DNA from: Melioribacter sp.
GTDB lineage: Bacteria; Bacteroidota; Ignavibacteria; Ignavibacteriales; Melioribacteraceae
NCBI GenBank assembly: GCA_023250955.1
Contig: JAHEZQ010000006.1
Coordinates: 124,001 to 188,000 of the forward strand
Length of the DNA: 64,000 bases
Direction of reading: 5' to 3'
Under the pieces are notes generated by a model. It saw only the letters and a list, made by a program, of their open reading frames with translations. It had not been told where the DNA came from and did not search any database. Below, piece by piece: positions 6,511 through 9,006 of the stretch. The translations under genes were made by a program, and so were the position numbers. The stretch's first letter is position 1; the number at the start of each line of letters is the position of its first letter.

Positions 6511-7635
6511 TCAATACCAAAAATGAAATTGCAGAACAAAAGCATTGTTATCAAGATTAGGATCTTCAATATTAAACCTGTACTGAGGACGAACTTCAAT
6601 AAAACTATACGGGAAAAATTCGAAACCTAAAACCAAATGCGCATGCTCGTCTTTGCTTATATCAAGGTTAGGATCAAAGCGATCGTATCGGACAATTGCT
6701 TCAAGTCCTACTATTAATTGATATGCGGCTTCTATCATCATCGCACTGGATTTAATTCCACTGCCTACATAATCATTTGTCATATCATACTCGCCCATCA
6801 ATGAAAATCCTTTATAACCAAAACCGGCAAATCCGCCATATAATTGAGTAGGCAAAGTTTGTGATCCAGTGGGGCCAAATATTTTTGTCTTAGTAGAAGA
6901 GTATGAGGCACCGAATATCAATCCAACTTTATTAATAGTTGGGGTAATTTCAAACCGTGCAGTTAATGTTGGATCAGTAGTAAGAATTCCATTCAATCTG
7001 TTTTTTCCAATGCTAGCTGTAAGTGAAGCTATATCAGAAAAATTTGCGCCGAGTTCTATACCAGTTGTTAAAAAGAATGGATTGTAAATTAATCCTTGAA
7101 TTGAACCGTTGGCAAAAAGCAACCCGAAATCACCGCCTCTTGTATATGACGTGTGATCATCCAAATGGATTCCGTAATTAGGTAAGAATGTACCGACCTT
7201 TATGTAGCTATCGTTTGGTAATATTCTTGCAACGGCAAAACCTTCCCAGATTGATTGAACAAAATCATAACGAGCGAGTACATCAATTTTTTGTGATAAA
7301 GAAGCGTTTAAATAAATTGATCCAGACATATCCTGAAAATCTGTTCTCTTCTTTTCTTGTGAGTAAAGAAATTGCGAACGGTAATCGAATCCGAAACAGA
7401 CACTTTCGGAAAGTTTAGGAGAAAGCTTAAAATCTTCGTCACGTGGGGAGATCATACTTACCACATTCTTACCGAAGAAGAATCCGTTTTCGTTTCGCAT
7501 TAATCCACCGGTAGGATTAATATGGCAACTGCTGCATCTATCTTTTTGCTGAAGAGAAAATCTTGGAATTGCAAAAATTTGTGCGAATGAAAAGACTAAA
7601 ACTGTAAGGGTTAACAAAAATTTTATTATTCTCAT
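6511..7635 (-). CDS. Exported protein with one CxxCH heme site and predicted outer-membrane barrel
   Basis: A 374-residue protein with an N-terminal signal peptide (about residues 1-22), then directly CSSCHINPTGG, a c-type heme attachment motif followed by MRNENGFFFGKN. The remaining 300 or so residues show alternating hydrophobic/polar strands with many aromatic ends (YIKVGTFLPNYG, GLEAIVRYDRFDP) and a C-terminal aromatic (HFWY), as in outer-membrane beta barrels. It resembles a porin with a cytochrome-like plug. The neighbouring T9SS gene has the same CxxCHI(N/D)PxGG(x)RN segment. A role in electron transfer across the outer membrane is inference; the family is not one I can name. Confidence 0.6.
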   Translation of the reverse strand: MRIIKFLLTLTVLVFSFAQIFAIPRFSLQQKDRCSSCHINPTGGLMRNENGFFFGKNVVSMISPRDEDFKLSPKLSESVCFGFDYRSQFLYSQEKKRTDFQDMSGSIYLNASLSQKIDVLARYDFVQSIWEGFAVARILPNDSYIKVGTFLPNYGIHLDDHTSYTRGGDFGLLFANGSIQGLIYNPFFLTTGIELGANFSDIASLTASIGKNRLNGILTTDPTLTARFEITPTINKVGLIFGASYSSTKTKIFGPTGSQTLPTQLYGGFAGFGYKGFSLMGEYDMTNDYVGSGIKSSAMMIEAAYQLIVGLEAIVRYDRFDPNLDISKDEHAHLVLGFEFFPYSFIEVRPQYRFNIEDPNLDNNAFVLQFHFWY

Positions 7636-7723
7636 ACACTCCTCATCGTTTAGTATTCATAAGGTATTAAAAACAATTTGAATCTGCTATAAAATAACAT
7701 TCTTGTTCAAATATTTGAATTAA

Positions 7724-8398
7724 TTACTTCATCAACACCATTCTTACAGAACGATCAAATCTTCCGGCTGTTAATCTATATATATAAATTCCAGATGAAA
7801 CTTCCTTCCCAATTTCGTTTTTCCCGTCCCAAGTTTTTTCATATTTACCTGCAGGTAAATTTTCATTCGTTAACGTTCTAATCAATTGGCCGTTAATGTT
7901 AAAAATTTTCAAAGCAACATTTTCATTTTGAGGAATTTCAAAAGTTATAACAGTTGATGGATTAAATGGGTTAGGATAATTATTAAGTAACTTGTAAGCA
8001 GTAGGAATTTGTTTATCAGCAACATCTGCTGTAACCGGTATACTGTTTGGATCACCCGGATTTGATACAGAGCCGCTGTTTCCGGGATTCGGTTGTCCAG
8101 GTCTCCATGTTCCGTTTGGATCACCTAATTCTTGTCCATTTGTAAATCCGTCACCGTCTGAATCTTGAAAGGCTATTGTTGAATTCCAAAATTCTTCATG
8201 CCCACCAGGGGAAACTTTAGTTTCTACAAGTTTACCAAAATTATTACGTAGCCCTCCGCCTTGAGGATCAATATGACAATTACTACACGAAAATTTTTCA
8301 CCATTTGGAATTTGTCCCACTCTCCAATCCCTTGCAATTAATATTGTAACCATTGCAAACAAAATAAGAGTAGCTATAAATAGTTTAGATTTTTTCAT
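7724..8398 (-). CDS. Secreted CxxCH heme protein with T9SS sorting domain
   Basis: A 224-residue secreted protein. It has a signal peptide (about 1-22), then IPNGEKFSCSNCHIDPQGG with a single c-type heme motif, a calcium-loop-like DSDGDGFTNGQELGDP near residue 78, a low-complexity Gly/Pro/Asn linker (100-120), and a C-terminal T9SS type A sorting domain of about 85 residues with NNYPNPFNPST, GQLIRTLTNENL and VSSGIYIYRL. The sorting domain would direct passage through the outer membrane by the PorT/Sov system and anchoring or release at the surface. It lies 88 bases upstream of the heme/barrel gene in the same direction, so the two probably act together at the cell surface. The function of the heme is unknown. 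Confidence 0.8.
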   Translation of the reverse strand: MKKSKLFIATLILFAMVTILIARDWRVGQIPNGEKFSCSNCHIDPQGGGLRNNFGKLVETKVSPGGHEEFWNSTIAFQDSDGDGFTNGQELGDPNGTWRPGQPNPGNSGSVSNPGDPNSIPVTADVADKQIPTAYKLLNNYPNPFNPSTVITFEIPQNENVALKIFNINGQLIRTLTNENLPAGKYEKTWDGKNEIGKEVSSGIYIYRLTAGRFDRSVRMVLMK

Positions 8399-8514: not shown

Positions 8515-9006
8515 ATGACTTACTTACTTATTAACAAATTACATATCATATTCGCTGGCATGTGGCTGATAAATCTAGCTGCATATCCTATACTACGCAG
8601 TTCAGTTCTTCACAATAAGAACAAATCTGGCGAGAAAAAGTTCATTCACCTCTATCTTACATTTGCAAATTTATTCGGTATGATAGGCGGATTAGGAATA
8701 CTTGCGACCGGAATATTTATGGTTACTAATAACTCATTATATGGTTTATTCCAGTTTACTCTCAATCATTGGCTAGCAGCTAAACAAATTCTAATGGTTA
8801 TATTATTAGTAATTCTAGCTGTGATAATAATTCCAACTTCTAAAAAGGTTAGAACTGCAATCGGTATTGACTTTGAAAAAAACGAACCGCTATGTGATGA
8901 CGTTTACAATAATTTGAATAAACTTTTTAAGTGGAACGCGGTAATTAATTACATAGTGCTGATAAATTTTCTTCTGGCAATTACTCATAATTATATCGGT
9001 AAATAA
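8515..9006 (+). CDS. Four-helix integral membrane protein
   Basis: A 163-residue protein with four hydrophobic segments (about residues 5-25, 48-72, 85-108 and 140-160). The first has KLHIIFAGMW with a histidine and tryptophan as in CopD/HemJ/DUF2269-type membrane proteins, some of which bind heme or copper, but similarity is too weak to assign one. It is nine bases upstream of dxr and probably shares its transcript. No soluble domain is visible. Confidence 0.6.
   Translation: MTYLLINKLHIIFAGMWLINLAAYPILRSSVLHNKNKSGEKKFIHLYLTFANLFGMIGGLGILATGIFMVTNNSLYGLFQFTLNHWLAAKQILMVILLVILAVIIIPTSKKVRTAIGIDFEKNEPLCDDVYNNLNKLFKWNAVINYIVLINFLLAITHNYIGK

Follow-up and report, generated by a model that had tools for sequence, protein, structure and literature searches.

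The window analysed here is a stretch of 64,000 nucleotides from a Melioribacter sp. genome of 3.26 Mb, and it holds two adjacent minus-strand genes whose products each carry an N-terminal hydrophobic export signal (judged by eye) and, shortly behind it, a single CxxCH. The upstream gene (positions 7724-8398, minus strand) encodes a 224 aa protein, here called heme-temptin, which was recognized from its open reading frame and its Pfam and NCBIfam domains. It is followed after a gap of 88 nt by a gene for a 374 aa barrel protein (positions 6511-7635, minus strand), which the open reading frame, structural model, fold search and profiles identify as a probable Cyc2-like fused monoheme cytochrome-porin. 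CxxCH occurs in just one further ORF of the 64-kb window (ATG-started ORFs longer than 90 aa), which by eye looks like a radical-SAM activase. A scan for promoters and terminators gave nothing above shuffled sequences and no terminator between the heme-temptin and barrel genes. A perfect palindrome, TTCAAATATTTGAA, without a T-run, lies right behind the heme-temptin stop codon (positions 7706-7719). On the plus strand at positions 8515-9006 there is a syntenic neighbor, a divergent membrane protein of 163 aa with weak UPF0093, DUF2269 and CopD matches, all below the cut-offs.

Both the barrel and the heme-temptin gene are under purifying selection. Compared with two close relatives, the barrel gene gave dN/dS values of 0.036 and 0.072, and the heme-temptin gene values of 0.086 and 0.110. 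With two farther relatives dS was saturated for one gene per pair, and the other gene gave 0.157 (secreted protein) and 0.096 (barrel).

The sequence-only reading had taken the 374 aa protein for an outer-membrane barrel, and structure prediction bore this out, with 16 strands and porins as the top matches. The AlphaFold2 model, built with 61 sequences, reached a pLDDT of 86.4 and a pTM of 0.82. Its strands begin at residue 79, so that the predicted 16-stranded outer-membrane barrel occupies residues 79-374 (positions 6514-7401, minus strand), and residues 23-78 form a separate segment of lower confidence, with the CxxCH heme c motif at residues 34-38 (positions 7522-7536, minus strand). The structure search with this model returned OprO (Z 24.7) and OprP (Z 24.3) at the top, and Foldseek ranked OprP first; general porins score less than 2 Z units below these, which makes the ranking weak alone and leaves the architecture as what counts.

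Between strands 5 and 6 the protein has a long loop (residues 151-189, positions 7069-7185, minus strand) that contains the motif DDH..TRGGD, with DDH at positions 7153-7161, and that in the model sits where porins have their constriction loop L3. In an alignment of 23 barrels that was not motif-selected, H161 was kept in 23/23 rows, D159, D160 and R166 in 22/23, and G167 and G168 in 19/23; M103 was likewise kept in 23/23. The residues of the loop motif are invariant in a larger alignment of 61 rows as well, where conservation of DDH is partly built in by the DDH-pattern scan that found the sequences, the 23-row alignment being the independent set. The loop would line the pore, where it could bind a metal ion or, via H161, the heme; M103 and H161 are candidate distal ligands in the barrel protein.

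The 61-row alignment consists of the window protein and 60 of the 80 loci found with the DDH-pattern scan. One CxxCH is present in all 61 rows, 59 of the 60 fetched rows having been chosen with the help of the motif, and its context reads A-[IL]-P-[RK]-F-x(7)-C-x-x-C-H-x-N-P-x-G-G-x-x-R-N. Outside this alignment stand 20 loci, with CxxCH in place in 17 and absent in three, of which one is cut by a contig end, one has a broken frame and one matches from residue 114 only. The last two (L171:6001-7093 and L164:6001-6750) are relatives of the barrel without a readable heme segment, and are possibly cases of decay or assembly errors.

The nearest relative from a named organism is the barrel of Melioribacter sp. 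MnB_16 (97% identity), which places the source of the window among the Ignavibacteria. A search with the barrel-family profile at E 0.001 gave matches in 60 of the 296 genomes analysed from the phylum, a count that takes in weak and partial ones. NCBIfam searched at E values up to 1 gave no name for the barrel, nor for six Cyc2 proteins from plasmids. Pfam returned scattered porin-type and stray weak matches across the family, with Porin_4 in 11/61 rows at E 0.1. In a sequence search of the PDB the barrel by itself had no match at E 5; its profile had two, both weak, at E 0.27 and at E 0.3, and the latter was a c-type cytochrome aligned over 43 residues. Neither the barrel nor heme-temptin matched a plasmid at E 1. 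An Ignavibacteria-type barrel (55% identity) was also seen on a contig labelled Candidatus Hodarchaeum mangrovi (L130), where it is probably a binning error.

To the sequence-only reading no system of such composition was known, but the fusion of a monoheme cytochrome with a porin is already published for Cyc2, whose porin part PMC8406198 describes as 16-stranded, with OprO and OprP as templates. The window barrel, at 374 aa, lies above the Cyc2 length criterion of at least 365 aa, as do 54/61 rows in all, and a single CxxCH behind the signal peptide (by eye), as Cyc2 requires, is found in the window protein and in 61/61 rows. The signature of Cyc2 is another matter. The full upstream motif AXPXFAR[QK][TY], as given in PMC8406198, occurs in 0/61 barrels and the partial form [AS]xPx[FY][AS] in 57/61; PxL, expected four residues past CxxCH, occurs in 0/61, compared with PEL or PQL in 6/6 plasmid Cyc2s. 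The full upstream motif is present in the Cyc2 that the genome itself encodes, yet in only 3/6 plasmid Cyc2s, the other three being off by at least one residue. Plain Cyc2 membership was rejected, the published signature failing in 61/61.

Profile comparison related the heme segment of the barrel to that of Cyc2 at 92% (P 6.7e-7), the Cyc2 profile being made of six plasmid proteins found via a typed consensus. When signal peptides were left out the value was 82.7%, with a score of 49.1 against 38.5 for the best of 40 column-shuffled controls. The Cyc2 profile also matched the heme segment of the barrel family in at least 21 of the 296 genomes (best E 5.6e-8), though at E 0.1 it missed the barrel in the window, and the barrel profile found the Cyc2 gene in 6/6 Cyc2 plasmids, with per-record E values from 1e-4 to 0.035; these genome and plasmid matches span signal-peptide columns, which only the comparison with shuffled controls leaves out. 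BLAST alignments against Cyc2 were confined to the signal and heme segment, with no sequence similarity between the barrel parts. Because the signature is absent and the barrel parts lack sequence similarity, the protein is best classed as a divergent Cyc2-like fused cytochrome-porin, a distant relative and not Cyc2.

A canonical, full-length Cyc2 is encoded elsewhere in the same genome as a separate gene (G000:C13:2950-4248; L228:2947-4287, minus strand; E 2.2e-131). It reads AIPSFARQTGMSCNTCHTIFPEL, and a cytochrome c gene lies upstream of it at a distance of 19 nt. Canonical Cyc2 was found in two congeneric genomes too, making 3/296 in all at that level. The window locus and the genome's own Cyc2 share a gene logic, in which a gene for a small heme protein directly precedes the fused barrel; at the plasmid Cyc2 loci a c-type cytochrome gene comes next downstream in 6/7 (two of them near-identical). 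In family f24 many genomes have one or several frames of about 400-500 aa that match the first ~70 to ~125 positions of the Cyc2 profile, and this family may hold further groups of fused cytochrome-porins.

Heme-temptin consists of a Temptin_C domain and a type IX secretion (T9SS) sorting tail. The former (Pfam PF24784; residues 28-115, positions 8054-8317, minus strand) matched positions 9-97 of the 98 in the profile, with E 2.8e-15 and 57 bits over a cut-off of 27. The tail (residues 141-221, positions 7736-7978, minus strand) matched TIGR04183 with E 7.1e-11 and 41.9 bits over a cut-off of 23, which confirmed the T9SS domain already assigned to the secreted protein from its sequence. Both Pfam domains, Temptin_C and Por_Secre_tail, were present in 14/14 rows of the secreted-protein alignment at E 0.001. 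The CxxCH of the temptin domain lies at residues 38-42 (positions 8273-8287, minus strand); C38, C41 and H42 are invariant in alignments of 14 and of 18 temptin proteins, and so are D79, D81, D83 and E90. The calcium site of temptin is given as DSDXD in PMC10075465, and heme-temptin has DSDGD at residues 79-83, within a putative calcium site that reads DSDGDGFTNGQE (residues 79-90, positions 8129-8164, minus strand) and contains the invariant acidic residues.

Among the 296 genomes of the phylum, Temptin_C was found in 18, at 20 places, all of which had CxxCH (20/20). One genome (G066) has two adjacent temptin genes, and in one of them the CxxCH reads CAMCH. A second invariant His or Met was not found in the alignment of 18 temptin proteins, so that the heme of heme-temptin may be five-coordinate and the protein something other than a simple electron carrier. 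Profile comparison of heme-temptin with Cyc2 gave no signal (4.6%). The structural model was weak in the temptin part (pLDDT 73 and pTM 0.43 for the whole model), and the fold search with it, returning mostly Ig-like, FlgD and PorU chains, was uninformative on the heme part. Searches of the PDB by sequence found only calmodulins and SoxA for the temptin part (E 0.06 or worse), and with the tail included the temptin profile matched mostly FlgD and PorU, by way of that tail. A whole-word literature search found nothing joining temptin to heme.

The sequence-only reading held that the two proteins share one short consensus behind CxxCH. This stood, with one difference in detail: CHx[ND]PxGG and RN are aligned column by column, but the FGK triplets are four residues out of register. 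Comparison of the barrel (61 rows) and secreted (14 rows) family profiles gave 97% over 33 columns (P 1.1e-10), and 95.3% with the signal peptides cut off; the barrel profile reached 39% and 14% against two other CxxCH families. At the level of sequence, the heme segments of the barrel and of heme-temptin are related. A chance motif was ruled out by the conservation of the motif, the profile comparison and the dN/dS results.

The genome has matches of the CcmC and CcmF type, a CcmE-like ORF (by eye) and SprA (616.7 bits, above the cut-off, at a contig edge). The proposal that both proteins are exported with a single heme each, the one as a barrel and the other as cargo of T9SS, has held up, and cytochrome c maturation genes and SprA are present in the same genome. 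The CcmE-like protein (L216:6334-6723, plus strand) reads CPSKY. The classical heme-binding site of CcmE is HxxxY, and a CxxxY type of CcmE also exists, whose pattern this sequence shows. T9SS exports folded proteins from the periplasm, and for this reason heme-temptin could carry heme out. Nothing was found in the literature on T9SS with multiheme cytochrome and extracellular electron as search terms.

A multiheme conduit was considered and rejected, as there is one CxxCH per protein and the window scan gave no multiheme ORF. A giant open frame in another genome (G078) was also discarded; it coincides with a masked run of N. In PMC8478452, FeGenie matches to Cyc2 from a deep mine fall mostly into 'cluster 3' at most sites, and Ignavibacteriales are among the taxa with iron-oxidation genes. 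Two of the barrel loci (L162 and L185) come from genomes titled DeMMO. Literature searches with fixed phrases tying Melioribacter or Ignavibacteria to Cyc2 gave unrelated papers only.

Pairing of the two genes was assessed in the 79 genomes of the window's family, of which 29 have the barrel (one as a fragment), 50 have temptin and 27 have both. Of the 28 full-length barrel genes, 21 have the temptin gene immediately upstream in the same orientation; in the remaining seven temptin is on another contig (six) or was not found at E 1e-15 (one), and some of these seven come from fragmented assemblies in which a contig break could hide adjacency. Temptin is present in 27/29 barrel genomes compared with 23/50 others (Fisher P 2.2e-5, uncorrected for kinship), and 23 of the 79 genomes have temptin without the barrel. 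Across the 61 aligned barrels, a neighbor was defined as a same-strand CxxCH ORF within 700 nt: it was heme-temptin in 13, an upstream diheme protein in four, a small downstream cytochrome in five and none in 39, the last group including two barrels with less than 600 nt of upstream flank and some with little downstream flank. Small neighbors from barrel loci matched PSCyt1 in 13/14 cases, and the one diheme neighbor tested matched CytoC_RC. On a quick tree the temptin label required three changes. The supposed pairing thus survives as a conserved gene order (21/28) but is not obligate, 39/61 barrels having no cytochrome neighbor and 23/79 genomes having temptin alone. Strict pairing was ruled out by solitary barrels, other cytochrome neighbors and temptin-only genomes.

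Other neighbors recur at these loci. The 163-aa membrane protein adjoins the barrel, temptin or both at eight loci of the family, and its residues H10, W17, N84-H85-W86 and K90 are invariant in 8/8. A dxr-like gene stands beside it at 7/8 loci, the eighth being a contig end. In two relatives heme-temptin (L100:8326-8982 and L102:8330-9286) is near a MarR-like regulator and a YceI-like gene (by eye). In another genome (G062) heme-temptin (L101:8216-8920, plus strand) lies directly behind look-alikes of ccmC, ccmE and ccmF, and these in turn behind an ORF with eight CxxCH.

The explanation we favor, with a probability of roughly 0.58 as a whole, is a pore in the outer membrane that transfers electrons to or from small soluble redox species, together with an exported partner cytochrome. 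The barrel and heme-temptin would probably act jointly, carrying electrons between the cell and small external molecules. Calculation backs the architecture, the kinship of the heme segment with Cyc2 and heme-temptin, the conserved gene order and the presence of maturation genes and SprA. In the proposed sequence of events, the barrel protein would be exported by Sec and heme c presumably attached at CxxCH by Ccm, and the short heme segment would plug the periplasmic mouth of the 16-stranded porin, by analogy with Cyc2. Small soluble redox species, perhaps metal ions such as Fe2+ or else small organic shuttles, would enter from outside, pass the constriction at the putative pore loop with its conserved DDH..R motif, and exchange electrons with the single heme of the barrel, which in turn would give electrons to, or receive them from, a periplasmic cytochrome. 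Heme-temptin, as a monoheme domain with a calcium site, would be exported by T9SS to the cell surface, and would most likely be the pore's extracellular cytochrome or metal-binding partner. The sequence-only reading had raised a route for electrons across the outer membrane; as a direct heme-to-heme wire such a route is doubtful, since one heme alone would not reach across the membrane. From a surface heme to one at the periplasmic mouth the distance is probably too long, and a small shuttle or metal ion between them would be more plausible.

It is somewhat unlikely, in our judgment, that the barrel is a Cyc2-like redox pore and heme-temptin a surface cytochrome or binding protein in its own right, with no more in common with the barrel than the operon or the maturation or secretion regime. 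The 23/79 family genomes with temptin and no barrel speak for such independence, as do longer temptins (open frames of 509-574 aa) in barrel-less genomes and the six genomes, of genera g5 and g6, in which both genes are present on different contigs. Against it stand the strict gene order in 21/28 genomes, the kinship of the two heme segments and the enrichment of temptin in barrel genomes (27/29 versus 23/50, with a Fisher P of 2.2e-5 that is uncorrected for kinship).

The remaining alternatives give the pair a function other than electron transfer. That the two proteins form a heme-based surface sensor or a pair that binds peroxide or NO, the barrel serving as a signalling or protective porin, would suit the single hemes, the lack of a multiheme ORF in the window and a temptin family without an invariant distal His or Met; we consider it improbable, since neither Pfam nor NCBIfam found a signalling domain in either protein and the cytochrome neighbors tested in other lineages belong to electron-transfer families (PSCyt1 and CytoC_RC). 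Less probable still is a porin for the uptake of metal or heme, in which the CxxCH segment binds metal or reduces it before import. The porin fold of the barrel and the conserved DDH in the presumed constriction loop would fit that function, but no transporter gene recurs among the named neighbors (by eye), and it is CxxCH neighbors that recur beside barrels instead.

A more far-reaching account can be offered, although taken as a whole it is unlikely. A second Cyc2-type pore would have evolved in Melioribacteraceae, with its partner cytochrome replaced by a T9SS-exported, calcium-bearing monoheme domain that acts outside, docking at the pore mouth or relaying electrons via a small shuttle. 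The Temptin domain would then have been a c-type cytochrome ancestrally, and animal temptins would be its heme-less descendants.

Cyc2 serves as a marker gene for iron oxidation. Automatic tools could mistake for Cyc2 those fused cytochrome-porins that have its heme segment and fold and lack its signature; alternatively, such proteins could widen the range of what Cyc2-like pores do. A T9SS-exported heme protein as the partner of a pore would, if true, be a different route for a cytochrome onto the cell surface, and a Temptin domain that carries heme would, if true, change the reading of the Temptin family.

Among known systems, the window barrel resembles Cyc2 in its signal peptide, in having one CxxCH 12 residues past the A of A-x-P-x-F, in its predicted 16-stranded barrel with OprO and OprP as top matches, and in the c-type cytochrome gene that is adjacent in many genomes. 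It differs from Cyc2 in that its family has CHxNPxGG..RN and the DDH loop instead of the signature, in its shorter length (374 aa compared with 446 aa for the genome's own Cyc2), and in its neighbor, a T9SS-exported heme-temptin. With MtrAB, MtoAB and OmbB it shares an outer-membrane barrel and, presumably, a c-type heme for electron transfer; in contrast to MtrAB and MtoAB, as described in PMC8406198, in which a separate decaheme protein goes with 26 strands, the window barrel would have one heme in a fused barrel of 16 predicted strands. OmbB- and MtrB-like complexes occur in Ignavibacteria according to PMC7399161, and these are of a different kind from the window barrel. Heme-temptin resembles animal temptin, a water-borne pheromone, along almost the whole Temptin_C profile, including the calcium motif DSDGDG. 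Animal temptin has two disulfides (PMC2762978), which are impossible in heme-temptin, since its only two cysteines are both in CxxCH. Set against animal temptin as it is described, the bacterial family has CxxCH, followed in the window protein by the T9SS tail. That tail, the C-terminal sorting domain TIGR04183, is what heme-temptin has in common with T9SS type A cargo, from which it differs in that the cargo is a putative monoheme c-type domain.
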